DNA of 64,000 bases from NCBI GenBank assembly GCA_001899775.1, contig MKWN01000033.1, positions 1-64,000 of the forward strand. Direction: 5' to 3'. Shown here piece by piece: positions 28,764 through 64,000 of this stretch. The notes below the pieces were generated by a model. The model made no database searches, was not told the DNA's origin, and saw nothing but the letters and a program-made list of their open reading frames with translations. The position numbers and the translations under genes were made by a program. Numbering within the stretch: position 1 is the stretch's first letter; each line of letters starts with the position of its first letter. This DNA is from Thiobacillus sp. 65-29. GTDB taxonomy: Bacteria; Pseudomonadota; Gammaproteobacteria; Burkholderiales; Thiobacillaceae.

Positions 28764-30035
28764 TTACTGCTGCGGGACCAGTTCGACGCGACGGTTCTTC
28801 GCGCGGCCTTCCGCGCTGTCATTGTCGGCAATCGGCTGCGCTTCACCATAACCCTTGGCGGTGAGGCGCTCCGCGGCGACGCCCTTGCCAACGAGGTAGG
28901 CGCGCACCGCCTCGGCACGGCGCTGCGACAACTTCTCGTTGTAGGCGTCGGAATCGACCGAGTCAGTGTGCCCGGCCACTTCGACCTTGACCTCGCCCCA
29001 TTCCTTGAGCGTGGCGGCGGCTTGGTCGAGGATCGCGGTCGCGTCCGCACGCAGCCTGGCACTGTCGTTGTCGAAATTGACGCCTTCGAGAACCAGTTTC
29101 TTCGGCAGCGGCGCGGGCTCCTCGACCTTCGGCGGACAGCCATCGACGGTGCCGGGCGCAGGGACCGTGGGGCACTTGTCCATCGCGTCGGGAATGCCGT
29201 CGCCGTCGGAATCCAGCGGGCAGCCGTCCACCGTACCCGGGGCGGACACCGTGGGGCACTTGTCCTGGTAGTCCGGGATGCCGTCGCCGTCACTGTCCAG
29301 CGGGCAGCCCCGGGCGTCGACCTTCACGCCCGCCGGCGTATCGGGGCACTGGTCGAGGCCGTCGAACACGCCATCGCCATCGCTGTCCAGCGGGCAGCCC
29401 CTGGCATCGACCTTGGCCCCCTTGGGGGTGTTGGGACACTGGTCGAGGCGGTTGGGTACGCCGTCGCCGTCGGCATCGGCGGGCGCGCCAAGACCCCAGG
29501 AATAGCCGAGCAGGGCCTGCACATTGCTCAGGCCGCCACCGGGCAGGCTGCTGTTGCCGAACGACTGGTCGGCGCGCAGCTCCCAGCGGAACGCGTCGTT
29601 CACGCCGACCGCCCAGTCCTGGCCGACGCCGAGCGAGGCCATGGGACGCGTGAAATCGGGGCCGCTGTCGGTGTTGACGTTCATCAGCCCGAGGCCGCCG
29701 GAAAGGAACCAGTTGTAGCGCTGCTGCCGCGAAATCAGCCATTCGAGGCCACCGCGCAGGGTGGTCACATCGGCATCGCCGACGCCGGCCGCATTGCCGT
29801 CATAGGGCCCATAGACGAGGTCACCGAAGAAATTGAAGTCCTCGCCCAGACGCTGGCCGTAGCGCAGGCCGAACAGCGGATTGACCTCGCCGTCCTTGCT
29901 GCCGACCAGATCGCCGTCGGCCCAGCCGCCACCCAAAAGCAGCCCGAGGCTGCGCTCGGGCATTTCGGCAGCGCCAACGCTACCCGCTGCGGCGAAAAGC
30001 GCGGCGAGCACAACCATGCGGTGTGCGTGTTTCAT
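28764..30035 (-). CDS. OmpA-family outer-membrane protein with TSP3 calcium repeats
   Basis: 423 residues. A signal peptide (1-22, ending GAA) precedes an eight-strand-type beta-barrel domain (about 25-190). Next come four thrombospondin type-3 repeats of the form D-x-DGDG-x-x-x-x-x-D-x-CP, two ending NTP/DTP and two ending TV. A C-terminal OmpA peptidoglycan-binding domain (about 310-420) carries AGHTDSVDSDAYNEKLSQRR and NRRVELVP. This is the OprF-like design linking the outer membrane to peptidoglycan through a calcium-binding, disulfide-rich linker. ATG 30035 gives a proper signal peptide. Confidence 0.92.
   Translation of the reverse strand: MKHAHRMVVLAALFAAAGSVGAAEMPERSLGLLLGGGWADGDLVGSKDGEVNPLFGLRYGQRLGEDFNFFGDLVYGPYDGNAAGVGDADVTTLRGGLEWLISRQQRYNWFLSGGLGLMNVNTDSGPDFTRPMASLGVGQDWAVGVNDAFRWELRADQSFGNSSLPGGGLSNVQALLGYSWGLGAPADADGDGVPNRLDQCPNTPKGAKVDARGCPLDSDGDGVFDGLDQCPDTPAGVKVDARGCPLDSDGDGIPDYQDKCPTVSAPGTVDGCPLDSDGDGIPDAMDKCPTVPAPGTVDGCPPKVEEPAPLPKKLVLEGVNFDNDSARLRADATAILDQAAATLKEWGEVKVEVAGHTDSVDSDAYNEKLSQRRAEAVRAYLVGKGVAAERLTAKGYGEAQPIADNDSAEGRAKNRRVELVPQQ
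29140..29490 (-). repeat. Tandem TSP3 repeat-coding region
   Basis: Within the OmpA-family gene four tandem units of about 75-90 bases encode DSDGDG-type calcium loops. The nucleotide sequence is strongly conserved between units (for example the recurrent complement of GGCTGCCCGCTGGACAG), so recent internal duplication or gene conversion is likely and unit number may vary between strains. Confidence 0.8.
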
Positions 30036-33606: not shown

Positions 33607-33775
33607 TTTGGGTGAGCGGGAAGCGGTGAACGGGAAGCTGGAAGCGGTGGACGGGAAGCGGTGAGCGGGAAGCGGGAAAGCACGACGCTTCATGACTCAC
33701 CGCTCACCGCTCACCCCTCACCGCTCACCCCTCACCGCTCACCGCTCACCACTCACCCCTCACCCCTCACCACTC
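33607..33775 (+). repeat. Heptad-repeat hairpin between purH and purD
   Basis: The left half (about 33618-33680) is a run of roughly nine exact 7-base units of the forms GCGGGAA, GCGGTGA, ACGGGAA and GCTGGAA. The right half (about 33694-33779) is twelve units of CTCACCG, CTCACCC or CTCACCA. GGTGAGCG in the left half is complementary to CGCTCACC in the right half, so the RNA can fold into a long stem with sliding register. The right half runs up to the purD ATG and replaces any normal ribosome site. Confidence 0.85.
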
Positions 33776-35053
33776 ATGAAACTCCTCGTCATCGGCTCCG
33801 GTGGACGCGAACACGCGCTGGCCTGGAAGCTCGCGCAATCGCCCAAGGTCTCCCAGGTCTACGTCGCGCCGGGCAACGGCGGCACGGCGACGGAAAGCGG
33901 TCTGGTCAACGTGCCGCTCACCGCGATTCCGGCGTTGGTGGAATTCGTGCGCCGTGACTCTGACATCGCCTTCACCGTGGTCGGCCCCGAGGCACCGTTG
34001 GCAGCCGGTGTGGTCGACGCCTTCCGCGCCGCGGGCCTGAAGATTTTTGGCCCGACGCAGGCGGCGGCGCAACTGGAAAGCTCCAAGGATTTCGCCAAGC
34101 AGTTCATGGCGCGCCACGGCATTCCGACCGCGGCGTTCGGCACTTTCACCGACGCCGCGGCCGCGCACGCCTACCTCGACGAAAAAGGCGCGCCCATCGT
34201 GATCAAGGCCGATGGTCTTGCCGCCGGCAAGGGCGTTGTTGTTGCCACGACCGCCGACGAGGCGCACGCCGCGGTGGACGCCATGCTCGCCGGCAACAGC
34301 CTGGGCGAGGCCGGTCACCGCGTCGTCATCGAGGAATGTCTTACGGGCGAGGAAGCGAGCTTCATCGTCATGGTCGACGGCGAACATGTGCTCGCGCTCG
34401 CCTCCAGCCAGGACCACAAGCGCCTGCTGGACAACGACCAGGGGCCCAATACCGGCGGCATGGGTGCGTATTCGCCGGCACCGGTGGTCACCCCGGAACT
34501 GCACGCGCGCATCATGCGCGAGGTGATCCACCCCGTCGTCGACGGCATGGCTGCGGACGGTATCCGCTATACGGGATTTCTCTATGCCGGCGTCATGGTC
34601 GGCGACGATGGTGTGCCCAGGGTGCTCGAATTCAACTGCCGCATGGGCGACCCGGAAACGCAACCGATCATGATGCGGCTGAAATCCGACCCCGTCACGC
34701 TGTTCGAGGCCGCCATCGACGGCCGTCTCGACGAAGTCGAGGCGGAATGGGACCGCCGCACCGCGCTCGCCGTCGTGCTCGCCGCCGCCGGCTATCCCGA
34801 TGCACCGCAGAAGGGCGCGGTCATCGGTCCGCTGCCCGCTGCGGCCGACGACCTTCACGTATTCCATGCCGGCACCGGCGTGGCAGACGGCCGCACCGTG
34901 GTGAGCGGCGGCCGCGTGCTGGCGGTAACCGCGCTCGGCGACAGCGTGCGCATGGCGCAGAAGCGCGCTTATGACGCCGTGGCGGCGATCCATTTCGACG
35001 GCATGCAGTACCGCCGCGATATTGGCTGGCGGGCGCTGGAACGAAAAAAGTGA
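33776..35053 (+). CDS. purD: Phosphoribosylamine-glycine ligase
   Basis: 425 residues, second committed step of purine synthesis, ATP-grasp fold. Marks: [17 protein letters not shown] at the start, [43 protein letters not shown], and [11 protein letters not shown]-like [13 protein letters not shown] with [15 protein letters not shown] 33776 lies directly after the heptad repeat and no purine-rich ribosome site precedes it; the upstream extension of the frame is only repeat (SPLT..H units) and is unlikely to be translated. Confidence 0.96.
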
Positions 35054-53086: not shown

Positions 53087-55044
53087 TCACCCATGCCCAT
53101 GACGATGTAGCCGGTCGGGCAGACATCGGCACAGATGTGGCAGCCGATGCACTTGCTGTAGTCGGTGTCGACGTAACGACCCACGGTGGGGTTGTCCTTC
53201 TTCTTCACCTTGAACACGGCGGTCTGCGGGCAGTACACCACGCAGTTGTCACACTCGAAGCACAGGCCGCAGGACATGCAGCGCTTGGCTTCGTCGATCA
53301 CCTGCTTTTCGCTCAGGCCGTGCAGGCGCTCCTCGAAGTTGCCGAGGGCGGTCTGCTGGTCGAGCACGGTGACTTCGCGAATATTGCGCGCGACGTTGGG
53401 GAAGTGACCAAGGAACAACTCGTTGTGCGGAATGACGTGGCGGTGGGAGCGGTCCTCGAAGTTGTGGAGGATGTCCTTGCGCTCCGAGGTGCCCCAGATT
53501 TCGCCGTGCACGTCGGCATACTCGTGACCGGTCTCGAGCCACTTGCGCAACTCGTCGAAATGGTGCACGTCGACCTTCGGACGCCTGTCGAGCTCTTCGC
53601 CGCGCAGGAAGGCGTCGATGCCGTCGACGGCGATCGCGGCATGGCCGATGGCGGTAGTGAGCAGATGCGGACGGATCACGTCGCCGCCGACGAACACTTT
53701 CTCATTGTTGGGAAAGCGATAGTTCTTGTCGGCCCGGATCAGACCGTTGTTGTTGTTGAACTGCTCGAGGCCGGTGAAGTCCACGCCCTGGCCGATGGCC
53801 GAGACGATCAGATCGCCCGGGATGTCGCGCTCGCTACCGGCGACGATCTTGGTTTCCTTGCCTTCGACGGTGAATTCGGCGACGCGCAGCGCGGTGGCGC
53901 GGCCGTTGGCGTCGACCACCACGGCAATCGGCGTCACGCCGCCGACGATCTCGATGCCTTCCTGCTGGGCGTGCTCGATTTCGTGCTTGTTGGCATTCAT
54001 CTTGTCGATGGTGGCACGCGACACCAGCACGACTTCGGCGCCTTCGCGGGCGGAAATCGAGGCGACGTCGCTCGCCATGTGGCCGGAGATGATCGCCTCG
54101 GGGCGGTCGTCGCGGGTGCCACCCTTGGTGACGTTACCCAGGCGGCGCGCGACGGTCGCGACGTCGATCGAGGTGTCGCCACCACCGATGACGACCACGC
54201 GGTTGCCGACGTGCTGCAGGCGGCCTTCGTTGAACGCGCGCAGGAAGGCGACGGCGGTCACGCAGTTGGGGGCCTCGGCGCCGGGGACGGGCAGCGGACG
54301 GCCGGCCTGCGCACCCATGGCGAGGAAGATCGCGTCGAAATTCTTGTCCAGTTCGTCGAAGCTGATGTCGGTGCCGACGCGGGTCTTCAGACGGGTCTCG
54401 ACGCCCAGCGCGATGATGCGGTTGATTTCGGTATCGAGCATCTCGCGCGGGGTGCGGAAGCCGGGAATGCCATAGCGCATCATGCCGCCGAGCTCTTCGT
54501 GCTCGTCGAAGATGGTGGCGCTGTGGCCGCGCAGACGCAGCTGGTAAGCGGCGGCGAGACCGGCCGGGCCGGCGCCGATGATGGCGATCTTCTTGCCGGT
54601 GTCGGCGGCCTTGGTTTCGAAGGCCATCTTGTTGTCATTGGCCCAGTCGCCGAGGAAGTGCTCGACGGAGTTGATGCCGACGTGATCTTCGACCATGTTG
54701 CGGTTGCAGCCCGATTCGCACGGTGCCGGGCAGACGCGCCCCATCACGGCGGGGAAGGGGTTGGCTTCCGTCAGACGGCGCCAGGCATATTCCTGCCACG
54801 GCATGCCTGCTGGCGGCTTTTCCATGCCGCGGGCGATGTTGAGGTAGCCACGAATATCCTCGCCGGCAGGACACGAACCCTGGCAGGGAGGCGTGGAGAG
54901 CACGTACTCAGGGCACTTGTGCGTCCAGCTGGCCTGGAAGATCATTTCCTGGGACGAACGGTAGTCCGCCTCGCTCTCGCCGTCCTTGAAGCGACGCCAT
55001 GTCATGCCTTCGGTCTTTGCTGCTTTGTTGGTCGTGACAGCCAT
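53083..55044 (-). CDS. dsrL: DsrL, NAD(P)H:acceptor iron-sulfur flavoprotein
   Basis: 653 residues, related to the small subunit of glutamate synthase. An N-terminal iron-sulfur domain has CQGSCPAGEDIRGY and CPAPCESGCNR. Two nucleotide-binding folds follow: FAD in IAIIGAGPAGLAAAYQLRLR and NAD(P) in VVVIGGGDTSIDVA. The C-terminus adds a ferredoxin-like module with CMSCGLCFECDNCVVYCP and CIGCHICADVCP. DsrL associates with DsrAB and passes sulfide-oxidation electrons to NAD(P). It is soluble and essential for sulfur oxidation in studied species. Confidence 0.95.
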   Translation of the reverse strand: MAVTTNKAAKTEGMTWRRFKDGESEADYRSSQEMIFQASWTHKCPEYVLSTPPCQGSCPAGEDIRGYLNIARGMEKPPAGMPWQEYAWRRLTEANPFPAVMGRVCPAPCESGCNRNMVEDHVGINSVEHFLGDWANDNKMAFETKAADTGKKIAIIGAGPAGLAAAYQLRLRGHSATIFDEHEELGGMMRYGIPGFRTPREMLDTEINRIIALGVETRLKTRVGTDISFDELDKNFDAIFLAMGAQAGRPLPVPGAEAPNCVTAVAFLRAFNEGRLQHVGNRVVVIGGGDTSIDVATVARRLGNVTKGGTRDDRPEAIISGHMASDVASISAREGAEVVLVSRATIDKMNANKHEIEHAQQEGIEIVGGVTPIAVVVDANGRATALRVAEFTVEGKETKIVAGSERDIPGDLIVSAIGQGVDFTGLEQFNNNNGLIRADKNYRFPNNEKVFVGGDVIRPHLLTTAIGHAAIAVDGIDAFLRGEELDRRPKVDVHHFDELRKWLETGHEYADVHGEIWGTSERKDILHNFEDRSHRHVIPHNELFLGHFPNVARNIREVTVLDQQTALGNFEERLHGLSEKQVIDEAKRCMSCGLCFECDNCVVYCPQTAVFKVKKKDNPTVGRYVDTDYSKCIGCHICADVCPTGYIVMGMGE

Positions 55045-55089
55045 GTTGATTCTCCTAACGCCTACAGATGAAGTGTTTACCCAGCGCGA

Positions 55090-56613
55090 TCAATCGAGCT
55101 TGATCGCCTTGCTGACCAGTTGATGCACACCGCCCACCATGCTCATGTCGAAACCGTACTTGGGCAGAACCTTGGTGAACTGCGCCTTGCAGATCGCGCA
55201 GATCAGGGCCAGGAAGTTAACCTGGCTTTCCTTGACTACGTTGTTCAAGGCAGTTGCGCGTGGCAGCGCACCCTTGACCCGGACCTCCATGAGGTCATCG
55301 GTGAGCAGGCCGCCGCCGCCACCACAGCAGAAGGTCGCTTCGCGGATCGTGCCGTCGGCCATGTCGTGGAAATTATTGACCACGGCGCGAATCAGTTCGC
55401 GCGGAATGTCGAATTGACCGCCCGGCTCGGTACCCATGCGCGAGGCCCGGGCCACGTTGCATGAATCGTGGAAGGTCACCACCAGATCGTCGTTGGCCGA
55501 CGGATCGACCTTGATCTTGCCCTGCTTGATCAGGTCGTTGGTCAGTTCGCAGATATGCTGCGGCTGCGGATAGCTGGGGTCGAGCTGCTTTTGCAATTCG
55601 ATCGAGAAGGGATCGTTGCCGCCGTAGCCGATACCGGTGAGCGTGTTCCAGAAACTGTAGGCGACGCGCCAGGCGTGGCCACACTCGCCGACGACGATGC
55701 GCTTGACGCCGAGTTCGAGCGCCGCGTCGCGGATGCGCATTGCGACCTTGCGCATCATTTCGTAGTTGGCTTCGAACAGGCCGAAGTTGCCGGCCTCGGA
55801 TGCATGCGAGGACAGCGTCCAGCTGATGCCGGCGGCATGGAACACCTTCGCGTAGCCGATGAGCGACTCGACGTGCGGCTCGGAGAAGAAATCGGCAGAC
55901 GGGGTGATCAGCAGGACTTCGGCGCCCTTGACGTCGAGCGGCATCTTCACCGGCACCCCGGTGTCGGCCTCCATGTCCTCTTCGAGGCCTTCCAGGGTAT
56001 CCGCGAGTGCGGGGCCGGGCAGACCGAGGTTGTTGCCGATCTTGATGACCTTGCCGAGGATCTCGTTGGTGTACTTCTGCCCGATGCCGACGTGATTGAG
56101 GATCTCGCGGCCCGCCATGGTGATCTCGGCGGTATCGATGCCGTAAGGGCAGAACACCGAGCAGCGCCGGCATTCCGAGCACTGGTAATAGTAGTTGTAC
56201 CAGGCGTCGAGTGTTTCGCGGGTGAGTTCCTTGGCGCCGACCAGGCCGGGGAAGACCTTGCCCGCCACGGTGAAATAGCGGCGGTATACCTGGCGCATCA
56301 GCTCCTGGCGCGCCACCGGCATGTTCTTGGGATCGGACGTGCCAAGATAATAATGACACTTGTCGGTGCAGGCGCCGCAATGCACGCAGGCATCGAGGAA
56401 CACCTTCAGCGAGCGGTATTTGCCCAGCAGGTCGCCCATTTTGCCAAGGGCGCGCTCCTTCCAGTCGTCGCCGAGTTCGCCCGGATAACCGAGGAATTCC
56501 TGGATCGGCCTGGCTGCAGGGAACGACTTCACGTGCGACATGACGCCTTCCCGCAGCTTGGGAACCTCGATGTCGTCCTTGATTTCCGGGATGTCGAATT
56601 CAGGTGCTGCCAC
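55090..56613 (-). CDS. dsrK: DsrK, HdrD-like iron-sulfur subunit
   Basis: 507 residues. Two [4Fe-4S] motifs are CVHCGACTDKC and CSECRRCSVFCP. The C-terminal CCG-type domain has HDSCNVARASRMG and TFCCGGGGGLLTD, which in heterodisulfide reductase binds the catalytic noncubane cluster. DsrK is the cytoplasmic subunit of DsrMKJOP thought to interact with DsrC. It lies between dsrM and dsrL, 45 bases before dsrL. Confidence 0.95.
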   Translation of the reverse strand: MAAPEFDIPEIKDDIEVPKLREGVMSHVKSFPAARPIQEFLGYPGELGDDWKERALGKMGDLLGKYRSLKVFLDACVHCGACTDKCHYYLGTSDPKNMPVARQELMRQVYRRYFTVAGKVFPGLVGAKELTRETLDAWYNYYYQCSECRRCSVFCPYGIDTAEITMAGREILNHVGIGQKYTNEILGKVIKIGNNLGLPGPALADTLEGLEEDMEADTGVPVKMPLDVKGAEVLLITPSADFFSEPHVESLIGYAKVFHAAGISWTLSSHASEAGNFGLFEANYEMMRKVAMRIRDAALELGVKRIVVGECGHAWRVAYSFWNTLTGIGYGGNDPFSIELQKQLDPSYPQPQHICELTNDLIKQGKIKVDPSANDDLVVTFHDSCNVARASRMGTEPGGQFDIPRELIRAVVNNFHDMADGTIREATFCCGGGGGLLTDDLMEVRVKGALPRATALNNVVKESQVNFLALICAICKAQFTKVLPKYGFDMSMVGGVHQLVSKAIKLD

Positions 56614-56675
56614 GTGCGAGTCCTTTTTCGGTGCCTGTTATGTCCGTCTTGCGTACGTCGAGCGGCGACGATGCG

Positions 56676-57410
56676 TCAGCTGTTCTGGTCGAGTCGCGCC
56701 GCCCAGGCCGCCACATGGCGGTGTTCGCGCGGGTTGTCCGCCTGGTTGCGGGTGGGGCTGAAAAACACCCCGGGCGCGTGCAGCAGCTTGCTGAGCGGGA
56801 AGATCAGCATGAGCAGCGCGACCAGCGCGAGGTGCACCAGCAGCACCGGATCCTGCGGCAGCGGCTGCGTGTCGAAGTAGATCAGGCCCATGAAGAACGC
56901 CTTCAGCGCGACAATATCGGTGTGCACGACGAAGGTCATCATCATGCCGGACAGGCCGATGCCGAGGAGAAGCAGGAGCATCAGGTAGTCGGACGGGGTC
57001 GAGATGTAGCGCACGCGATCCACCAGGAAGCGGCGCGCCAGCAGGCCGGCGAGACCGGCCACCATCATGAGGCTGGCGTACTTGCCGAAAGGCTGGACGA
57101 TGTCGACCCAGAACCAGACCGGTTCGGTGAAATAGCGCAGATGACGCGCCAACACGAGGAACAGGCCCATATGGAACAGCCAGCCGAACAGCCAGATCCA
57201 CTTGTTGGACTTGAACAGCGATTCGAACAACACGACTTCCTTGCCCATGCGGTACACCACACCGGGCCGCGTCGTCGGAGCCGGCGTAGTGGGGATCTTC
57301 AGCGGCGCGGGTGTGCGACTGTAGTCGAAAATCTTGTAGGCCAGGCCCGCCACCAGCACGAACGTGGCGACGTAGAACAGCCCGGCATAAATCATCGTCA
57401 ACGTAGACAA
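56676..57410 (-). CDS. dsrM: DsrM, membrane cytochrome b subunit
   Basis: 244 residues with about five to six membrane helices of the NarI type. Histidines in FHMGLFLVLARHLRY and in later helices (VVHTD, LLVHLALVAL) can ligate haem b. It links DsrK to the quinone pool. ATG 57410 is used, directly downstream of two hairpins that separate it from dsrC. Confidence 0.93.
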   Translation of the reverse strand: MSTLTMIYAGLFYVATFVLVAGLAYKIFDYSRTPAPLKIPTTPAPTTRPGVVYRMGKEVVLFESLFKSNKWIWLFGWLFHMGLFLVLARHLRYFTEPVWFWVDIVQPFGKYASLMMVAGLAGLLARRFLVDRVRYISTPSDYLMLLLLLGIGLSGMMMTFVVHTDIVALKAFFMGLIYFDTQPLPQDPVLLVHLALVALLMLIFPLSKLLHAPGVFFSPTRNQADNPREHRHVAAWAARLDQNS

Positions 57411-57434
57411 AACCTATCCCCCAACAACGTGTCT

Positions 57435-57513
57435 GTTTTCGGATCGCACGCCGCGCATGCGATCGGAAAACGGTCCACCGTGACCGCGGTCCCCCGGTTC
57501 AGGGCCGGGGGGC
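57435..57513 (-). terminator. Two tandem hairpins between dsrC and dsrM
   Basis: Downstream of dsrC a first hairpin (57489-57513; CCCCCGG with GCCGGGGG) is followed by a second with 14-base arms (57435-57448 and 57458-57471; GTTTTCGGATCGCA, one mismatch). They fill most of the 117-base dsrC-dsrM gap. In other sulfur bacteria dsrC message is far more abundant than the rest of the operon, so partial termination or 3'-end protection of the dsrC transcript is likely. Confidence 0.75.
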
Positions 57514-57527
57514 GCGAGAGCGGCCGC

Positions 57528-57863
57528 TCAGATACAGCCGGTCGGCTTGGGCAGGCCGGCGATCTTGCACGCCTGCTTGGCGGGGCCGTAGGGGAACAAC
57601 TCGTACAGGTACTTGTTGTTGCCCTTTTCCGGGCCAAGCTTCTTGCCGATGGCCTTGGTGAGCACGCGGACGGCGGGAGCGATCTGGTACTCGTCGTAGT
57701 ACTCACGCAGGAAGTTGATCACCTCCCAGTGGTTCTCGGTCATGTCGACCTTTTCTTCGACGGCCATGTGCTTGGCGACGTCCTCGTTCCATTGCGACAG
57801 GTCGATCAGATAGCCTTCCTCGTCGACTTCGACATCCTTACCGGCGATATTCACCATGGGCAT
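57528..57863 (-). CDS. dsrC: DsrC, sulfur-carrier protein
   Basis: 111 residues. The C-terminal arm has both functional cysteines, C99 and C110, ten residues apart in KQACKIAGLPKPTGCI; the penultimate one forms the trisulfide or receives persulfide sulfur. Core signature HWEVINFLREYYDEYQIAPA is intact. DsrC is substrate for DsrAB and DsrMKJOP. ATG 57863 is used (a second Met at codon 3). A paralogue without cysteines lies at 62769-63101. Confidence 0.97.
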   Translation of the reverse strand: MPMVNIAGKDVEVDEEGYLIDLSQWNEDVAKHMAVEEKVDMTENHWEVINFLREYYDEYQIAPAVRVLTKAIGKKLGPEKGNNKYLYELFPYGPAKQACKIAGLPKPTGCI

Positions 57864-57887
57864 AGCAATACTCCTTTTGATTGAAAA

Positions 57888-58187
57888 TTACAGCCAAGAC
57901 TGACAGTTGCGGTGCTCTGCGACCAGATCCACGAAACCGCCGTAATCCACGACATTGACGCCGTCCAGCACACGCCCGGCCATGCCGCGCGCCGCAAGAT
58001 CCGGCCCGAGTGCGTAAATCTTGAGGCCAGCAGCCGCCGCCTGGATTTTCGCCGCTGCCGCACTGCCCTTGGTCGCGGCATACACCGCGTCCTCGATCAG
58101 CAATACGGCAGAACCTTTGGTGGCCAGCCTGAGGCAGCTGTCAAGCGAGCTGCGCTCGGTGGCCGATTTGTTCACGATATGCAGCAT
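57888..58187 (-). CDS. dsrH: DsrH, sulfur-relay subunit (TusB family)
   Basis: 99 residues, TusB/DsrH fold beginning MLHIVNKSATERSSLDSCLR with the conserved cysteine at position 18. DsrH joins DsrE and DsrF in the E2F2H2 complex that delivers persulfide sulfur to DsrC. It lies between dsrF (10-base gap) and dsrC (24-base gap). Confidence 0.95.
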   Translation of the reverse strand: MLHIVNKSATERSSLDSCLRLATKGSAVLLIEDAVYAATKGSAAAAKIQAAAAGLKIYALGPDLAARGMAGRVLDGVNVVDYGGFVDLVAEHRNCQSWL

Positions 58188-58197
58188 GTCTATCCCC

Positions 58198-58593
58198 TTA
58201 GAAGCTGATCACGACGTCTTGCTCGTCCATGAGATTCTTCATCTCGTCGTCGGAGAGCACCGTCACGTCCACAATCAGGTCGTCCTCGGTCAGGCCGCGC
58301 GCGTCGAGGGAAGACTGGTCGACATACAGTTTCTCGATGTCGTAGCCATCCAGAGCGCGATAGGTCTTGGAGAAGTCCTTGACCTCGATACCCTTGGTGT
58401 CGATGCCCTTCATCAACTGATAGACACCATCGTCCGTGAACACCAGGCTCACGTCCTGATCGAAAGCGGCCGTGATCAGCACCACCTCCAGGCCTTCCAG
58501 CGCGTACACGGTACCGTGCGGCGCCTTGCGGTTCAGGAACATGAATTTCTTGACGATGCCGGAGCCGTCGTCTTCCATATCCATATCGCTCAT
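58198..58593 (-). CDS. dsrF: DsrF, sulfur-relay subunit (TusC family)
   Basis: 131 residues, TusC/DsrF fold with KKFMFLNRKAPHGTVYALEG and VSLVFTDDGVYQLMKG. It carries no cysteine, consistent with a structural rather than sulfur-carrying role in DsrEFH. ATG 58593 has a GAGG site 9 bases upstream; an upstream TTG overlapping dsrE is less likely. A short acidic N-terminal extension (SDMDMEDDGSG) precedes the fold. Confidence 0.95.
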   Translation of the reverse strand: MSDMDMEDDGSGIVKKFMFLNRKAPHGTVYALEGLEVVLITAAFDQDVSLVFTDDGVYQLMKGIDTKGIEVKDFSKTYRALDGYDIEKLYVDQSSLDARGLTEDDLIVDVTVLSDDEMKNLMDEQDVVISF

Positions 58594-58604
58594 CTCGCTA
58601 ATCC

Positions 58605-58964
58605 TCAATCACCGAACGTCACGAGACGATCGTACTGAATACCCATTTCAACCAACTGACCGAGACCGGAAATCCGGAAACCCGGCGCCAGGAGTTCGTC
58701 CTTGATGCCGCGGCGCAGCGCGGCCGCCACGCACACGACGAGATCGATGCCGTGCTCTTCGGCAAGCTTCGACCAGCGCGTGGTGACGTTGCGGTCGTCC
58801 TGTGGCGGCTCGCCCATGCGGGTCGAGTTGTTCACGCCGTCGTGATAGAAGAACACGCGCGGAACCGTATGGCCTTTCTCGATCGCGTTGCGCGCGAAGA
58901 GATAGGCCGAGTCGCTGGCCTGGTGGTTGTAAGGCCCTTCGTTTATCAGAATGCCGAATTGCAT
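58605..58964 (-). CDS. dsrE: DsrE, sulfur-relay subunit (TusD family)
   Basis: 119 residues, TusD/DsrE fold: MQFGILINEGPYNHQASDSA at the start and VPRVFFYHDGVNN. The active cysteine is C78 in DLVVCVAAALRRG, the position known to carry the persulfide in studied DsrE. It follows dsrB after a gap that holds a strong hairpin. Confidence 0.96.
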   Translation of the reverse strand: MQFGILINEGPYNHQASDSAYLFARNAIEKGHTVPRVFFYHDGVNNSTRMGEPPQDDRNVTTRWSKLAEEHGIDLVVCVAAALRRGIKDELLAPGFRISGLGQLVEMGIQYDRLVTFGD

Positions 58965-59010
58965 CGCTCGTTGAACTCCGAAAAAACCGTTTGTTATCGT
59001 TTCACATCAT

Positions 59011-59035
59011 GCCGCCGCAGCCCCGCTGCGGCGGC
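59011..59035 (-). other. Hairpin between dsrB and dsrE
   Basis: GCCGCCGCAG and CTGCGGCGGC form a perfect 10-base stem with a CCCCG loop, in the 85-base gap after dsrB. On the transcribed strand it is followed by bases that include a run of T (the complement of AAAAAA at 58981-58986, some 24 bases on). It may attenuate or process the message after dsrAB. Confidence 0.7.
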
Positions 59036-59049
59036 CGTACACGCGACAA

Positions 59050-60123
59050 TCAGAAGCGGATGTGCGCGGACGCGTTCAGGCTCGCCCGGCTGCCACGCCA
59101 GTTGTCGATGTGATACTTGGTGAAGGGCAGACCGGTCTTCTCGAAGAACGCGGGCCAGCCGATGCGCTCCACCCAGTCGGACAGGCGCTCCCACGGACGG
59201 GCGTCTTCCTTGTAGGTGTAGAGGATCTTCTTGACGACTTCCGAAACTTCCACCCAGCGCGGCGGGTTGTTCGGGATGCCGGCAGCGACCAGCTTGTGGA
59301 AGGTCGGCTTGGCGCGCGCGTTGGCGTTCTTGCCGCCCACCCAGATAGCGAACTTGGAATGCTCGGGATCGTTGATCTGCATCGGCGGGCAGGGCGGGAA
59401 GCAGGCGCCGCAGCAGATGCACTTCTTCTCGTCGACTTCGAGCGAGGGCTTGCCGTTGACCAGTGCGGGACGGATCGCCGCGACCGGGCAGCGCGCCACG
59501 ACGGACGGACGCTCACACACGTTGGCGACGAGATCGTGGTTGATCTTCGGCGGCTTGGTGTGCTGCATGATGATGGCGATGTCAGCCTGGCCGCCACAGT
59601 TGATCTCGCAGCAGGACGTGGACATCTTCACCCGGTTGGGCATCTCGCAGTTGGTGAACTCGTGGTAGAGCTCGTCCATCAGGGCCTTGGTCGCGCCGGA
59701 CGCGTCCGAGCCCGGGATGTCGCAGTGCAGCCAGCCCTGGGTATGCGCGATCATGGAGACCGAGTTCGCGGTGCCGCCAACGGGGAAACCGTTGTCGGTA
59801 AGCGTCTTGATCAGGGGCTCGACCTTGTTCTTGTCGGCCACCATGTACTCGATGTTGGAACGGGTGGTGAAGCGCACGAAGCCGTCGGCGAACTGGTCGG
59901 CGATGTCAGCCAGCTTACGGATGGTGTAGTGGTCCATCTGGCGCTGGGTACCGGCCTTGACGGTCCAGACTTCATCGCCGCCCTCGGCGCGGTGATAGAG
60001 GACACCCGGCTTCGGATGGCTGTGGAAAATCCACTTGCCATAGTTCTTCTTCATCACGGGGTGCATGAACGGCATCGGGTCCGGGGTGCCGGATTCGATG
60101 GTTTCCCATGTTCTTTCAGCCAT
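59050..60123 (-). CDS. dsrB: DsrB, reverse dissimilatory sulfite reductase beta subunit
   Basis: 357 residues. Cluster/siroheme cysteines are seen in STSCCEINCGG (C171, C172, C176), and a ferredoxin domain has CICCGACFPPCPP (C235-C245). DsrAB oxidises DsrC-bound sulfur to sulfite in this organism type; direction is inferred from the presence of dsrL and dsrEFH, which mark the oxidative pathway. ATG 60123 has a GGAG site 7 bases upstream. The frame is open further upstream, but that part is the dsrA-dsrB gap. Confidence 0.96.
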   Translation of the reverse strand: MAERTWETIESGTPDPMPFMHPVMKKNYGKWIFHSHPKPGVLYHRAEGGDEVWTVKAGTQRQMDHYTIRKLADIADQFADGFVRFTTRSNIEYMVADKNKVEPLIKTLTDNGFPVGGTANSVSMIAHTQGWLHCDIPGSDASGATKALMDELYHEFTNCEMPNRVKMSTSCCEINCGGQADIAIIMQHTKPPKINHDLVANVCERPSVVARCPVAAIRPALVNGKPSLEVDEKKCICCGACFPPCPPMQINDPEHSKFAIWVGGKNANARAKPTFHKLVAAGIPNNPPRWVEVSEVVKKILYTYKEDARPWERLSDWVERIGWPAFFEKTGLPFTKYHIDNWRGSRASLNASAHIRF

Positions 60124-60167
60124 GCTTTTCTCCAAACTTAGTAGGATCGGAAAATCTGATTTAACGC

Positions 60168-60189
60168 CCGACACCGTCTCCGGTGTCGG
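60168..60189 (-). other. Hairpin between dsrA and dsrB
   Basis: CCGACACCG and CGGTGTCGG make a perfect 9-base stem with a TCTC loop in the 83-base intercistronic gap. It lies about 17 bases beyond the dsrA stop and well ahead of the dsrB ribosome site, so a role in mRNA stability or balancing the two subunits is possible. Confidence 0.7.
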
Positions 60190-60206
60190 ACTCCTTGCTC
60201 AATGCG

Positions 60207-61508
60207 TCAGGCGGCGGACTGCTTGCGCTCGTTCCACTTGGCCGCTTCTTCGTCCCAGCCGTCGGTACGGATGTAGGGGTTGGTACGCGGATGACTGATC
60301 ATGTTGGGATCCACGTCGATACCGATACCCTCGAGGAAGTTCATGAGGCCGATACGCTCGATCATCTCGCCGGTACGCTCGTGCTCCAGCGCGTTTTCGG
60401 CGAAGAAATCGATGATGGTGCGACCCAGGTCGTTCAGCTTCTCGAAATCGTCGTCGGATTCGAGCTTCATGAACGGCACGATCACGGTACCCATCAGGTC
60501 GCCGATCTTCAGGGTGCGCTTGCCACCGACCAGGATGGTCACGCCCTTGTCCTTGCCGGGCAGCAGGCCGCCGGGGATGACGTTCAGGCAATGCATGCAG
60601 CGCACGCAGTTCTTGTTGTCGATGCACAGCGACTTGCCATCGCCGAGCGCCGCGACGGACACGGTGTCGCTGGCCTGCACCTTGTCGGTGTCGACCAGGG
60701 TGATGGCCTTGGTCGGGCACTTGCTGACCACGTCATTGACGAGGTCGGACATGCCGTGAGCCTTGTAGTAGTCCTGGACCTGGGCTTCGTTGACGCGGAT
60801 GTTGTCGCGCCAGGTGCCGATCACCGCCATGTCCGCGCGCTGGATCGAGTTGACGCAGTCGTTCGGGCAGCCGGAGAACTTGAACTTGAACTTGTAGGGC
60901 AGCGACGGACGGTGCATGTCGTCGATGTTGTTGTTGATGACGGTGCGCAGGGCACGCGCCTCGTCGAAGCAGGACATCTCGCAGCGCGCGGCGCCGACGC
61001 AGGACATCGAGGTACGCAGCGCCGGGCCGGCACCGCCGAGGTCGAAGCCCATTTCGTTGAACTTGTCGAAGGCTTTCTGCACGTTCTCGGTCTTCACGCC
61101 CTGCAGCATGATGTCGCCGGACTGGCCGTGCAGTGCAATCAGGCCCGAGCCGCCGGTTTCCAGCCAGGCGTCGCACATCTGACGCAGCAGGTCGGACGAG
61201 TAGTGCATGCCGGCCGGGGGCATGATGCGCAGGGTGTGGAATTCAGCCGCTTCCGGGAACAGGGGTACGCCCTTTTCGTCCTTCAGTTCGGTGAAACGCG
61301 GGATGATGCCGCCGCCATAGCCGATCACGCCGACCGTGCCGCCCTTCCAGTAGCCGAACTTGGTCCGGTAGGAGGTCTCCAGCTGACCCAGGAGGTCAAC
61401 CATCATGTCGTTTTCCTTGGCCAGGCGCTTCAGGCCGGTCACGAAGCTGGGCCACGGGCCTTTCTCGAGATCGTCCAGATTGGGGGTATCGTACATTTGT
61501 TTTGCCAT
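60207..61508 (-). CDS. dsrA: DsrA, reverse dissimilatory sulfite reductase alpha subunit
   Basis: 433 residues, first gene of the dsr operon. Siroheme-[4Fe-4S] ligands are in MSCVGAARCEMSC (C170, C176) and FSGCPNDCVN (C214, C218). A ferredoxin insertion has CIDNKNCVRCMHCLNV (C295-C307). With DsrB it forms the alpha2-beta2 siroheme enzyme. ATG 61508 has an AGGAGAG ribosome site 6 bases upstream, the best in the operon, matching an abundant protein. Upstream lies a 325-base regulatory gap. Confidence 0.97.
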   Translation of the reverse strand: MAKQMYDTPNLDDLEKGPWPSFVTGLKRLAKENDMMVDLLGQLETSYRTKFGYWKGGTVGVIGYGGGIIPRFTELKDEKGVPLFPEAAEFHTLRIMPPAGMHYSSDLLRQMCDAWLETGGSGLIALHGQSGDIMLQGVKTENVQKAFDKFNEMGFDLGGAGPALRTSMSCVGAARCEMSCFDEARALRTVINNNIDDMHRPSLPYKFKFKFSGCPNDCVNSIQRADMAVIGTWRDNIRVNEAQVQDYYKAHGMSDLVNDVVSKCPTKAITLVDTDKVQASDTVSVAALGDGKSLCIDNKNCVRCMHCLNVIPGGLLPGKDKGVTILVGGKRTLKIGDLMGTVIVPFMKLESDDDFEKLNDLGRTIIDFFAENALEHERTGEMIERIGLMNFLEGIGIDVDPNMISHPRTNPYIRTDGWDEEAAKWNERKQSAA

Positions 61509-61833
61509 CGGTATCTCTCCTAGAACAATCGATATGCCCGCTCAGCTCGGGGCTCAACGGTATGCCTGCATGCTATGCGCGCCCCGCCCTCGCGACTATC
61601 ATTCTCATGGGTTAGACTCCCCACCCATCGAGGGGGGGTGCCACCTACCCGAATGGCGTAGTCGGGGTGCCCCAACACGGGGGTGCCACGCCGGCTCGAA
61701 CGGTGCGACAGTACCGGCCGCACGTGAACCAGGTCGCCCACACAAGAATCTATCAGCCTATTAAAATATTGTTGATCATGCAAGCCCCCGGATCGGGTAG
61801 GGTTGAAACCCGCCGGCGCGCCCCAATAAGCTC
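61509..61833. promoter_or_regulatory. Divergent control region of dsrA and the Cas6-like gene cluster
   Basis: No gene is seen in these 325 bases. They hold three direct copies of GGGGTGCC (61635-61644, 61664-61673, 61680-61689; two continue as GGGGTGCCAC). An AT-rich island, TATTAAAATATTG (61755-61767), stands out in GC-rich surroundings. Both are candidates for regulator and polymerase contacts for the two divergent transcription units. No convincing -35/-10 pair with 17-base spacing was found. Confidence 0.5.
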
Positions 61834-62088
61834 ATGATTCCCCAACGCAAACCGGACTCCACGCTCATGCCCGACATCACGCCCATCGACGCCATGCGCC
61901 TGCCCTTTGGCGGCCAGGAAATCGAGTTCCAGCATCTGGAACACGAAGCCGGCGGTGTGCCGTTCCTGCGCATCCGCATCCGCGAGAACAAGCGCTTCAC
62001 CATTTTCGACGTCGATCCGGCGAGTGCGCGCCAGTGGGCCCGCCTGATGCAGGACTGGGCGGAACGCAATGCCGGGGACAGCGCATGA
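61834..62088 (+). CDS. Small protein of unknown function upstream of the Cas6-like gene
   Basis: 84 residues, soluble, not recognised. The middle reads MRLPFGGQEIEFQHLEHEAG and then VPFLRIRIRENKRFTIFDVD, suggesting a small beta-sheet domain, ending in a helix ARQWARLMQDWAERN. The ATG at 61834 or the Met at codon 12 could start it. The stop overlaps the next ATG (ATGA), so it is coupled to the Cas6-like protein and probably works with it. No cysteine and no membrane segment. Confidence 0.7.
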   Translation: MIPQRKPDSTLMPDITPIDAMRLPFGGQEIEFQHLEHEAGGVPFLRIRIRENKRFTIFDVDPASARQWARLMQDWAERNAGDSA

Positions 62089-62744
62089 GCTGGGACGCGT
62101 GGCCGGACAATCGGCCACAGGAATACACGCCGCGCATGGTCGACCTGCAATTCGACCTCGCCGGCTCGACCATTCCCGCCGACAGCGCACAGCTACTTCT
62201 GGACGCGCTGCGCCCGCTGCTGCCGTGGCTTGGCGAAGACCCCGGGACCGGCATCCAGCACCTCAAGGGCGCCGAATCGACCCGTGGCGATACCGTGCTG
62301 CATATCAACCGCCGCGCCAAGCTGTTCCTGCGCGTGCCACGGGAGCGGGTCGACGCCATACAGGCGCTGGTTGGCCGGACGCTCGACCTGGCCGGGCACA
62401 CGCTGACCGTCGGCGCCTTCAAGACGCGCGCCTTCAGTCCTTTCGCCAACCTCTACGCGCATTTCGTTGACACCGGCAGCAGCACTGAAGAACAATTCGT
62501 GCAGGACATCATGCACGAACTGGTCGAGCGCTTCGAGCTGCGCTGCGGGTTCATCTGTGGCAGGCAGCAAACGCTGCACAGCGCCGCCGGCCCGCTCATC
62601 GGGCACAGCCTGATGCTGCACGACCTGCCGCCGCACAAGTCGCTGCAACTCCAGGACGAAGGCCTGGGGCGCAACCGGCTGCTCGGCTGCGGAATCTTCA
62701 TCCCGCACAAATCCATCGCGCCGGTTGCACCGGCGAATCTTTGA
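62085..62744 (+). CDS. Cas6/Cmx6-like RNA endonuclease homologue
   Basis: 219 residues. The layout follows the Cas6 subgroup of type I-MYXAN systems (Cmx6): an opening beta segment VDLQFDLAGSTIPADSAQLL, PWLGED, then RAKLFLRVPRERVD with a following GRTLDLAGHTLTVG, SPFANLYAHFVD, and a C-terminal glycine-rich loop GLGRNRLLGCGIFIPHK (193-209) typical of RNA-binding Cas6 RAMP folds. Cas6 proteins cut CRISPR precursor RNA at repeat hairpins. No CRISPR array and no other cas gene is in this window. It is coupled to a small unknown protein and followed by a cysteine-free DsrC, divergent from dsrA. Whether it still cleaves RNA cannot be told. Confidence 0.75.
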   Translation: MSWDAWPDNRPQEYTPRMVDLQFDLAGSTIPADSAQLLLDALRPLLPWLGEDPGTGIQHLKGAESTRGDTVLHINRRAKLFLRVPRERVDAIQALVGRTLDLAGHTLTVGAFKTRAFSPFANLYAHFVDTGSSTEEQFVQDIMHELVERFELRCGFICGRQQTLHSAAGPLIGHSLMLHDLPPHKSLQLQDEGLGRNRLLGCGIFIPHKSIAPVAPANL

Positions 62745-62768
62745 TCCAACCACCCGAAAGGAGTAATC

Positions 62769-63101
62769 ATGTCTTATGTTGTAAACGGCACCGAATTCGA
62801 AACCGACGAGGACGGCTTCCTGGTCGAAGCCAACTTCAATGACGACATCGTCCCGGTGATCGCCGAATCCGAAGGCCTGAAGCTGAACGACGACCACTGG
62901 ACCGTGGTTCGTTTCATGCGCGAGCGCTACCAGGAAGACGGCCAGACCCCGAACTTCCGCAACATGGTCGCCCTGCTCGAGGAACAGGACGACAGCATCG
63001 ACTGGAAGAAGAAGCTGTACGAGCTCTTCCCGCAGCAGCCCAACCGCCAGGCCGCCAAGGTCGCCGGCCTGCCCAAGCCGTTCGGCAAGGGCGGCTACTG
63101 A
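62769..63101 (+). CDS. DsrC/TusE-family paralogue lacking cysteines
   Basis: 110 residues with the DsrC fold: the N-terminal YVVNGTEFETDEDGFLVEA, the core DDHWTVVRFMRERYQEDGQT and the C-terminal RQAAKVAGLPKPFGKGGY. Both sulfur-carrying cysteines are gone (Ala96 and a glycine take their places) and the protein has no cysteine at all. It therefore cannot carry sulfur. Cysteine-free members of this family have been proposed as regulatory sulfur-related proteins. AGGAG precedes the ATG by 6 bases. It follows the Cas6-like gene by 24 bases. Confidence 0.92.
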   Translation: MSYVVNGTEFETDEDGFLVEANFNDDIVPVIAESEGLKLNDDHWTVVRFMRERYQEDGQTPNFRNMVALLEEQDDSIDWKKKLYELFPQQPNRQAAKVAGLPKPFGKGGY

Positions 63102-63208
63102 TCAGGGATCAGGGATCAGGAATCAGGAATCAGGCGGCCAATCCTGCTATCTGATACCTGACATCTGATATCTGATACCTGATACCTGATACCTGACAAC
63201 CGATACGC
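63101..63208 (+). repeat. Heptad-repeat hairpin after the DsrC paralogue
   Basis: Five left-hand units of the form TCAGGGA/TCAGGAA (from 63104) are followed by a short spacer. Then come about eight right-hand units TACCTGA, TATCTGA or CATCTGA (to about 63203). The two halves are complementary, so they form a long stem. The unit length, seven bases, and the two-armed design match the repeat at 33607-33775 though the unit sequence differs. It probably ends or protects the message of the upstream gene. Confidence 0.85.
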
Positions 63209-63211
63209 TCC

Positions 63212-64000
63212 ATGTTTTCGACCACGCTCGTCAGCACTGCCGATCTTGCCGCCCATCTGGACGACCCGAACTGGGTCGTGCTGGACTGCCGCTTCACGCT
63301 GACCGACACGGAAGCGGGTCGCGCGGCGTATCACAAGGCGCACATCCCGGGTGCGCGCTACGTGCATCTGGACGAGGATCTGTCGGCGCCGGTCGGGGAG
63401 AAGACGGGGCGCCACCCCATGCCCGATCCGCACGTGCTGACCGAGAAGCTGTGTGCCTGGGGCGTGGGGGTGAACAAGCAGGTGGTGGTGTACGACGACA
63501 GCTTCGGTTCGATGGCGGTGCGCCTGTGGTGGCTGCTGCGCTGGCTCGGTCACCCGGCGGTGGCGCTGCTCGACGGCGGCTATCCGAAATGGACGCGCGA
63601 AAAGCGTCCGGTCGACGCCATCGTGCCGGCGCCGCACCGGGGTGCCTGCGCCTGCCTGCCCGAACCCACCCAGGTCGTCTCCGCGGACGACATCCTGCGC
63701 GCTTCGCAGACCGGCGAGCAGCTCATCCTCGACGCGCGCCCGGAACGGCGTTTCACCGGTGAGTTCGAGCCGCTCGATCCGGTCGCCGGGCACGTCCCCG
63801 GCGCGATCAACTATCCGTTCGACGAGAACCTCGACGTCGACGGTACTTTCCTGCCGCCCGAGGCCCTGCGCGAGAACTACCAGGCGCTGCTGAAGGGCAG
63901 GCCCGCGTGGCAGGTGCTGCACATGTGCGGCTCGGGCGTTACCGCGTGCCACAATGTCCTGGCGATGGAAGTCGCCGGCCTGTCCGGCTCGCGTCTGTAT
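63212..64000 (+). CDS. sseA: 3-mercaptopyruvate sulfurtransferase / rhodanese (cut by window end)
   Basis: The first 263 residues are present; the stop lies beyond 64000. Two rhodanese domains: the first with VVLDCRFTLTD and HIPGARYVHLDEDL, VYDDSFGSMAVRLWWLLRWLG and LLDGGYPKW; the second with LILDARPERRFTGE, GHVPGAINYPF and the active-site loop CGSGVTAC. The CGSGVTA loop is typical of SseA-type 3-mercaptopyruvate or thiosulfate sulfurtransferases. It could feed persulfide sulfur towards the Dsr relay. Start ATG 63212 follows the heptad repeat, and no clear ribosome site is seen. Confidence 0.92.
   Translation, partial: MFSTTLVSTADLAAHLDDPNWVVLDCRFTLTDTEAGRAAYHKAHIPGARYVHLDEDLSAPVGEKTGRHPMPDPHVLTEKLCAWGVGVNKQVVVYDDSFGSMAVRLWWLLRWLGHPAVALLDGGYPKWTREKRPVDAIVPAPHRGACACLPEPTQVVSADDILRASQTGEQLILDARPERRFTGEFEPLDPVAGHVPGAINYPFDENLDVDGTFLPPEALRENYQALLKGRPAWQVLHMCGSGVTACHNVLAMEVAGLSGSRLY

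Follow-up and report, generated by a model that had tools for sequence, protein, structure and literature searches.

What is a Cas6/Cmx6 protein, of a family whose usual task is to cut RNA in immunity based on clustered regularly interspaced short palindromic repeats (CRISPR), doing beside the dsr genes of sulfur oxidation? The question is raised by a 64,000-nt stretch of Thiobacillus sp. 65-29 (contig MKWN01000033.1, positions 1-64,000; hereafter the window), in which open reading frames (ORFs) and profile matches place three genes in order on the forward strand. These encode a DUF6967 protein, the Cas6/Cmx6 homologue (219 amino acids, 62085..62744) and a cysteine-free DsrC/TusE-family paralogue (110 amino acids, 62769..63101) ending in KGGY instead of TGC[IV], here called GGY-DsrC. 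The cassette's divergent partner is dsrA on the reverse strand (60207..61508; TIGR02064, 508.6 bits at 60225-61478). The Cas6 ATG overlaps the DUF6967 stop (ATGA), and the DsrC-like ORF begins 24 bases after Cas6, a layout that the ORF calls give just as the preliminary description of this DNA had it.

A Cas6 family linked to dsrA

The assignment of the 219-residue protein to Cas6, made earlier from sequence patterns, is confirmed by profiles and by fold. PF09559 matches with 200.9 bits (E 2.6e-59; cut-off 26.7) and TIGR02807 with 224.1 bits (cut-off 98.85), and an AlphaFold2 model matches Cas6 structures, some of them RNA-bound. Compared with two near relatives, the gene has ratios of nonsynonymous to synonymous change (dN/dS) of 0.037/0.195 and 0.065/0.471, and it is thus under purifying selection.

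To see how far the gene extends, we counted Cas6/Cmx6 and dsrA matches in draws of genomes, many of them draft assemblies, from the own genus, from the phylum and from the class Gammaproteobacteria, taken broadly so as to include the betas. Within the genus 35 of 36 genomes have a Cas6/Cmx6 match, 34 over the cut-off. Among the 369 genomes of the class draw, Cas6/Cmx6 was found in 118 (112 over the cut-off) and dsrA, fragments included, in 119 (112 over the cut-off): 111 have both, seven Cas6 only, eight dsrA only and 243 neither (Fisher p 7e-75, uncorrected for ancestry). Completeness of the dsrA-only genomes ranges from 55 to 99%, and several of these eight, like some of the seven with Cas6 only, are incomplete assemblies. 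The phylum-wide draw of 378 genomes gave five with Cas6/Cmx6, which are precisely the five own-class genomes with dsrA.

Where both genes were present they were usually neighbours. In 82 of the 111 double-positive genomes they lie within 10 kb on one contig, and all 82 pairs are divergent; in two more (G168, G383) a single contig carries them at a great distance from each other, and in 27 they are on separate contigs, some probably through assembly breaks. The pairwise identities of Cas6 and DsrA are correlated over all pairs of 144 loci (Spearman 0.78), with values of 0.72 among betas, 0.53 in the Thiobacillus type and 0.33 among gammas, so that strict co-inheritance is weakly supported within the last group. 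For closer comparison we surveyed 201 loci, with ORF- and profile-based gene calls: 47 of Thiobacillus type (the window, G010 and the 45 nearest named contigs), 38 other beta and 116 gamma. Thus the tie of Cas6 to dsr, and the conservation of the gene group near dsr in related genomes, are both upheld, and we are nearly certain that a conserved, CRISPR-independent, dsr-linked Cas6 family exists.

Independence of CRISPR

A repeat search found no CRISPR-like array in the window (1-64000) or in contig positions 62000-76000, and the neighbours of the Cas6 gene are dsr and cassette genes. The genome's only Cas1 match sits on another contig (C7), in a type I-C locus with Cas5c, Cas8c, Cas7c, Cas3, Cas4, Cas1c and an array of at least 67 copies. 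The locus is therefore as free of array and cas genes as had been noted. Cas1 occurs in 51 of the 118 Cas6-positive and 85 of the 251 Cas6-negative genomes of the class draw (odds ratio 1.49, p 0.08, likewise uncorrected for ancestry).

A stray CRISPR Cas6 serving arrays in trans could find such an array in this very genome, and 15 of 36 genomes of the genus have Cas1. However, type I-C systems lack cas6 and use Cas5d instead, according to the relevant part of PMC3652601; 67 of the 118 Cas6-positive genomes have no Cas1, and the Cas6 gene is linked to dsrA. Given the independence from Cas1 and the type of the own system, service in trans is very improbable, and the CRISPR-independent role first suggested for the protein is, with the linkage to dsr, strongly supported.

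Residues kept, lost and gained

With the Cas6/Cmx6 proteins of type I-MYXAN and the type I-B CRISPR-associated transposon (TIGR02807, PF09559, PDB 8fcj), the dsr-linked protein shares its whole fold, a G-rich loop near the C-terminus (GLGRNRLLGCGIF, then PHK) and R83. The loop glycines G193 and G203 are retained in 199 and 200 of the 201 loci respectively, and R83, which is common to CRISPR-type proteins, in all 201. What the dsr-linked protein lacks, apart from a CRISPR neighbourhood, is the His of the LHE/LHD motif. Present in six of seven CRISPR-type proteins in the alignment, this residue, which from the alignment and the motif we take to be His46 of Pyrococcus furiosus Cas6, is found in three of the 201 loci (L196, L208, L231); the aligned residue is not His in the other 198, and is Gly in the window protein. 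Conversely, residues conserved in the dsr-linked family are not so in the seven CRISPR-type proteins: R77 (201 loci), E135 (197) and K209 (194), and for the most part W3 (186) and H208 (185). Gamma proteins have in addition a GNGW insert, the W of which is found in 115 of 116 loci. A second His (in a DH pair) is kept by nearly all gamma loci (115 of 116) and most other beta loci (35 of 38), but by one of 47 of Thiobacillus type, where Asn or Ser mostly takes its place. A tree of 204 proteins separates the seven CRISPR-type sequences from the 197 others with support of 0.98 and 0.998; this split and that of the His rest on those seven sequences and describe a contrast, not a rooted history. No relatives were found in phage records or viral contigs.

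These losses bear on whether the protein cuts RNA. In P. furiosus Cas6, catalysis involves Tyr31, His46 and Lys52; the position of the catalytic His varies among Cas6 proteins, and the crenarchaeal Cas6 of S. solfataricus (SsoCas6) is active without it (all from the pertinent part of PMC3652601). SsoCas6 and the dsr-linked protein thus both lack the canonical His, but the former serves CRISPR and uses Lys/Arg residues, as the same part of PMC3652601 describes. Since the place of the His is variable, and a second His is kept in gammas and other betas, activity is possible after all, and the gamma proteins may have some residual activity. Of the earlier term 'Cas6-type nuclease', then, the family name stands, while the enzymatic half is put in question by the missing His, the example of SsoCas6 notwithstanding.

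The same pattern of residues could also suit a protein that has given up RNA altogether, with the Cas6 fold serving only to scaffold a complex of Dsr proteins, while the GGY arm would inhibit DsrAB or DsrMKJOP by docking into it. Loss of the canonical His and the newly conserved R77, E135, K209, W3 and H208 would fit such a structural role, but it does not account for the G-loop glycines and the R83 held in common with CRISPR-type proteins, and we consider it unlikely.

The GGY-DsrC paralogue

The third cassette protein matches PF04358 with 108.7 bits (E 2.5e-31; cut-off 24.9). It shares with the DsrC/TusE family (PF04358, TIGR03342) the domain, over nearly its whole length, and the C-terminal arm (GLPKP in the window copy). 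It differs in its tail: the window protein has no Cys at all, and so none of the sulfur-carrying kind at its C-terminus, whereas the canonical protein ends in TGC[IV]. By a strict count, 167 of the 201 loci have a DsrC copy on the same strand within 1.5 kb downstream of Cas6, and 166 of these copies end in GGY. Their last 112 residues contain no Cys in 120 cases, one in 46 and two in a single case, so that cassette copies are Cys-free or Cys-poor; the 90 operon copies of DsrC examined end mostly in TGC[IV]. Of 12 extra genomes, picked because Cas6, DsrC or both seemed absent or out of place, eight proved to have a GGY copy: six of the eight Cas6-positive and two of the four Cas6-negative genomes (G266, and G169 at a contig edge). 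Among these 12 the search found no GGY-DsrC in Cas6-positive G101 and G364.

DsrEFH and DsrC are relatives of TusBCD and TusE, which thiolate tRNA, and it is conceivable that tRNA, not the dsr message, is what Cas6 and GGY-DsrC act on. Scored against the TusE model, the DsrC-like protein reaches 79 bits, short of the cut-off of 191, and RNA-bound Cas6 structures are among the fold matches; but the linkage is to dsrA, and a GGY protein lacks the terminal Cys of a sulfur carrier. We regard a role in translation as improbable. The DsrC paralogues of A. vinosum listed in the relevant part of PMC3368242 do not adjoin dsrA (Alvin_1251). This could explain why the cassette has gone unnoticed in that model organism.

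A proposed role on the dsr message

We propose that in an ancestor of the class a Cas6/Cmx6 protein left CRISPR and became part of a regulatory cassette dedicated to dsr. The descendant, having kept the Cas6 fold and the G-rich loop while mostly losing the His aligned with the canonical catalytic one, would bind, and at most slowly cut, hairpins of the dsr transcript, the best candidates being the dsrA-dsrB stem-loop or a leader hairpin. Binding would set the amount of Dsr proteins, with GGY-DsrC as a partner that may report the state of the DsrC/DsrEFH sulfur relay. We put the probability of this mechanism as a whole, regulation of dsr with Cas6 as an RNA-binding component mostly without cleavage and GGY-DsrC as its partner, at roughly 0.4; that the Cas6 protein acts on the dsr message is, as a claim of its own, tentative. 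A single early domestication, by which Cas6 became a CRISPR-free regulator of sulfur oxidation, a hairpin binder accompanied by a GGY DsrC decoy and inherited with dsr even into reduced genomes, is possible but somewhat doubtful.

The candidate target in the window is a hairpin at the dsrA-dsrB junction (60168..60189, reverse strand) with an 11-bp stem and a 4-base loop; like the other two hairpins singled out in the preliminary description (57435-57513 and 59011-59035), it folds well. We asked in how many loci the best local hairpin in the 120 bases around the dsrA stop reached z < -2 against dinucleotide shuffles. Such hairpins were present in 16 of the 34 loci of Thiobacillus type, in 19 of the 34 beta loci and in 44 of the 70 gamma loci. 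This amounts to 79 of 138 loci with Cas6, against four of 20 other-class dsrA genomes without it (20 of 47 were examined; Fisher p 0.003, uncorrected), an excess that is equivocal because ancestry confounds the comparison. Stem details, seen for 34 of the 70 gamma loci and ten of each other group, include many stems of at least ten pairs, with a 4-base loop commonest in all three groups. These features favour a reading of the junction hairpins as selected RNA structure. The idea that Cas6 processes hairpins of the dsr message thus gains from their greater frequency at Cas6 loci and loses by the confounding of ancestry and the missing His. The one Rfam match in window positions 55000-64000, to family RF02886 (25.1 bits; gathering score 72), was dismissed.

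Several observations weigh against the proposed role. Processing of RNA is made doubtful by the missing His equivalent in 198 of 201 loci. In 59 of the 138 loci with Cas6 no junction hairpin reaches z < -2, and among the loci with stem details three of reduced genomes (L055, L057, L200) keep Cas6 with only weak junction folds. The Thiobacillus hairpins look related to one another, but the gamma ones examined are mutually unrelated in sequence, and Cas6 normally reads a specific hairpin. All 47 other-class genomes with dsrA in the phylum-wide draw, whose Dsr may or may not run oxidatively, are without Cas6, so that the link characterizes the class and not Dsr chemistry as such. Lastly, the seven Cas6-positive class genomes without dsrA include one with a dsrA/B fragment beside Cas6 (G377) and one, given as 100% complete, with the order TauD-s8-Cas6-DsrC and no dsrA (G186; s8 is a 63-residue protein described below). 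To these must be added the character of a palindrome upstream of dsrA.

A palindromic element upstream of dsrA

In the window, a conserved dyad between dsrA and the cassette, recognized by comparison of Thiobacillus-type loci, lies at 61597..61680 (no strand assigned), where it is partly degenerate. It includes a motif copy, CTACGCCATTCGGGTAG, at 61645..61661 on the reverse strand, the sole exact CTACNCCNTNNNGGTAG match in the genome. The Thiobacillus-type form, CTAC-N9-GTAG, is found in 36 of 43 loci, with two inverted copies in 13 of the 43. Other betas have a form CTACCC-N4-GGGTAG, which as CTAYCC-N3-8-GGRTAG occurs in 13 of 36 loci (0.06 expected), and gammas a form TATCCC-N4-GGGATA, which as TAYCCC-N1-6-GGGRTA occurs in 36 of 80 (0.02 expected). 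When up to two mismatches are allowed, 66 of the 80 linked gamma loci carry TATCCC-N4-GGGATA upstream of dsrA, where shuffles would lead one to expect 0.65.

In split genomes, those with Cas6 on a different contig from dsrA or at a long distance, the element goes with dsrA and not with the cassette: it was found in 19 of 25 dsrA upstream regions from 24 genomes (0.3 expected), and in strict form upstream of the cassette in two of 28 cases (G213, G326). At up to two mismatches it is also present in two of four class genomes with dsrA and no detected Cas6, and in none of nine genomes of other classes. It is nearly unique, with one exact copy in 16 and two in three of 20 genomes, 19 of which were chosen for having it. 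Mispairs in the gamma element are about equally G-U (27) and A-C (26), and pair 3 shows no compensatory change, so that the element looks like DNA half-sites; four double changes at pair 5 speak against a pure half-site reading.

An RNA-hairpin reading of the element was tried and not upheld. RNAalifold gave a consensus of seven pairs for 42 Thiobacillus sequences, and in a hand-set structure 887 of 1260 cells were Watson-Crick, a gap-free fraction of 0.706 that compares with 0.20-0.42 for slid versions. The inner non-conserved positions pair poorly, however, and the mispairs (59 G-U and 99 A-C, the A-C ones often in the inner loop) have no usable strand bias. The gamma element fared likewise. 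As the clearest conserved element near dsrA, the palindrome supports regulation of dsr, though rather as a DNA site, and it is a likely operator of a putative dsr regulator.

That regulator may be a cassette protein, most plausibly GGY-DsrC, which would bind the palindrome as DNA and control the divergent promoter, with Cas6 as an RNA- or protein-binding co-factor. The mostly single-copy occurrence of the palindrome in linked and split genomes and the mispair pattern just given would suit transcriptional control, and binding to DNA upstream of dsr has been reported for the canonical A. vinosum DsrC (PMC5944118, in the part concerned, citing Grimm 2010). Yet the presence of the element in two of the four class genomes without detected Cas6 means that it need not belong to the cassette, and G101 and G364 have Cas6 where no GGY-DsrC was found. 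This alternative we hold to be rather unlikely, and we keep binding of dsr-transcript hairpins by Cas6 as the preferred reading.

Strongly conserved in Thiobacillus-type loci, between the dyad and DUF6967, is also an AT-rich box (TATTAAAATATTG, about 61759-61771), which is probably a promoter part of dsr or of the cassette.

Implications

The NCBI family model gives these proteins a CRISPR label, which makes it easy to pass over them; in this class the Cas6 gene acts like an ordinary constituent of the dsr locus, which suggests that an immune protein has been reused for sulfur metabolism. If it does bind dsr RNA, it opens the question of how sulfur oxidisers set their Dsr levels and provides a clean case of CRISPR protein reuse. 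To our knowledge, no other family of CRISPR ribonucleases serves central energy metabolism, and this would be the first. It would also hint at what the cysteine-poor DsrC paralogues do, to which the parts of the literature covered assign no function. A literature search aimed at Cas6 together with dsr, or at the locus tags, found no such link, most subscription papers lying outside it, and the link goes unmentioned in the portions covered of PMC11406059, PMC5728499, PMC10952691 and PMC5944118.

Other cassette genes and lineage variants

The small protein upstream of Cas6 had been described as an unknown of 84 residues. Its ORF does reach 61834 (61834-62088), but conservation among relatives begins at the ATG equivalent to 61867, which makes that the most likely start and about 73 residues the probable length (61867..62088, forward strand). 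It now has a family, the domain of unknown function DUF6967, with a match to PF22295 over the whole model (102.6 bits, E 9.9e-30; cut-off 27).

Cassette composition varies with lineage. Thiobacillus-type loci (Thiobacillus thioparus DSM 505 and T. denitrificans RG are among the named ones in the best 80 of 480 matches) have DUF6967 in 40 of 47, DsrC in all 47 and divergent dsrA in 43; the other betas have them in 32, 38 and 36 of 38 respectively. Gamma loci have DsrC in 88 and dsrA in 82 of 116. DUF6967 is typical of betas and rare among gammas (three of 116), where a TauD-family protein (79 loci), a 63-residue protein (95) and a protein of about 235 residues (44) are found instead. The 63-residue protein (s8; LSEILLQ...DVKPPF.DTPEDWEDRLEAAF), upstream of Cas6 or of the 235-residue protein, has no convincing Pfam match, and homology to DUF6967 was not upheld (profile comparison probability 1.1%). 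The 235-residue protein, conserved between s8 and Cas6 (e.g. L197, L228, L187), likewise has no convincing Pfam family. A Cse2 small subunit was considered and rejected: there was one weak match (E 0.018; one of 21 members E 0.034), TPR and other matches were equally weak, and the best solved relative by sequence had E 0.67.

In the two single-contig genomes of 1.4-1.5 Mb with Cas6 away from dsr (L058, L059; G168, G383), it is by eye divergent from rnc/era-like genes, with GGY-DsrC about 8 kb away. A tblastn match to Cas6 in a Sulfuricellaceae locus (L154, 8001-8651) crosses a stop codon. On plasmid pGMOR1 of Gloeobacter morelensis (L075), Cas6/Cmx6 lies near PAPS reductase-family and cupin genes, with no annotated cas gene within 3 kb in an incomplete gene table, and is possibly another CRISPR-free Cas6. 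In the window itself, short imperfect repeats (GATCAGG, CTGATACCTGA) were seen by eye at 63103-63195, between the DsrC-like gene and a rhodanese-like gene. Elsewhere in it are tandem CTCACCG-like heptamers (33682-33779) and three copies, 62-73% alike and probably coding, of a 90-base repeat (29169-29432).
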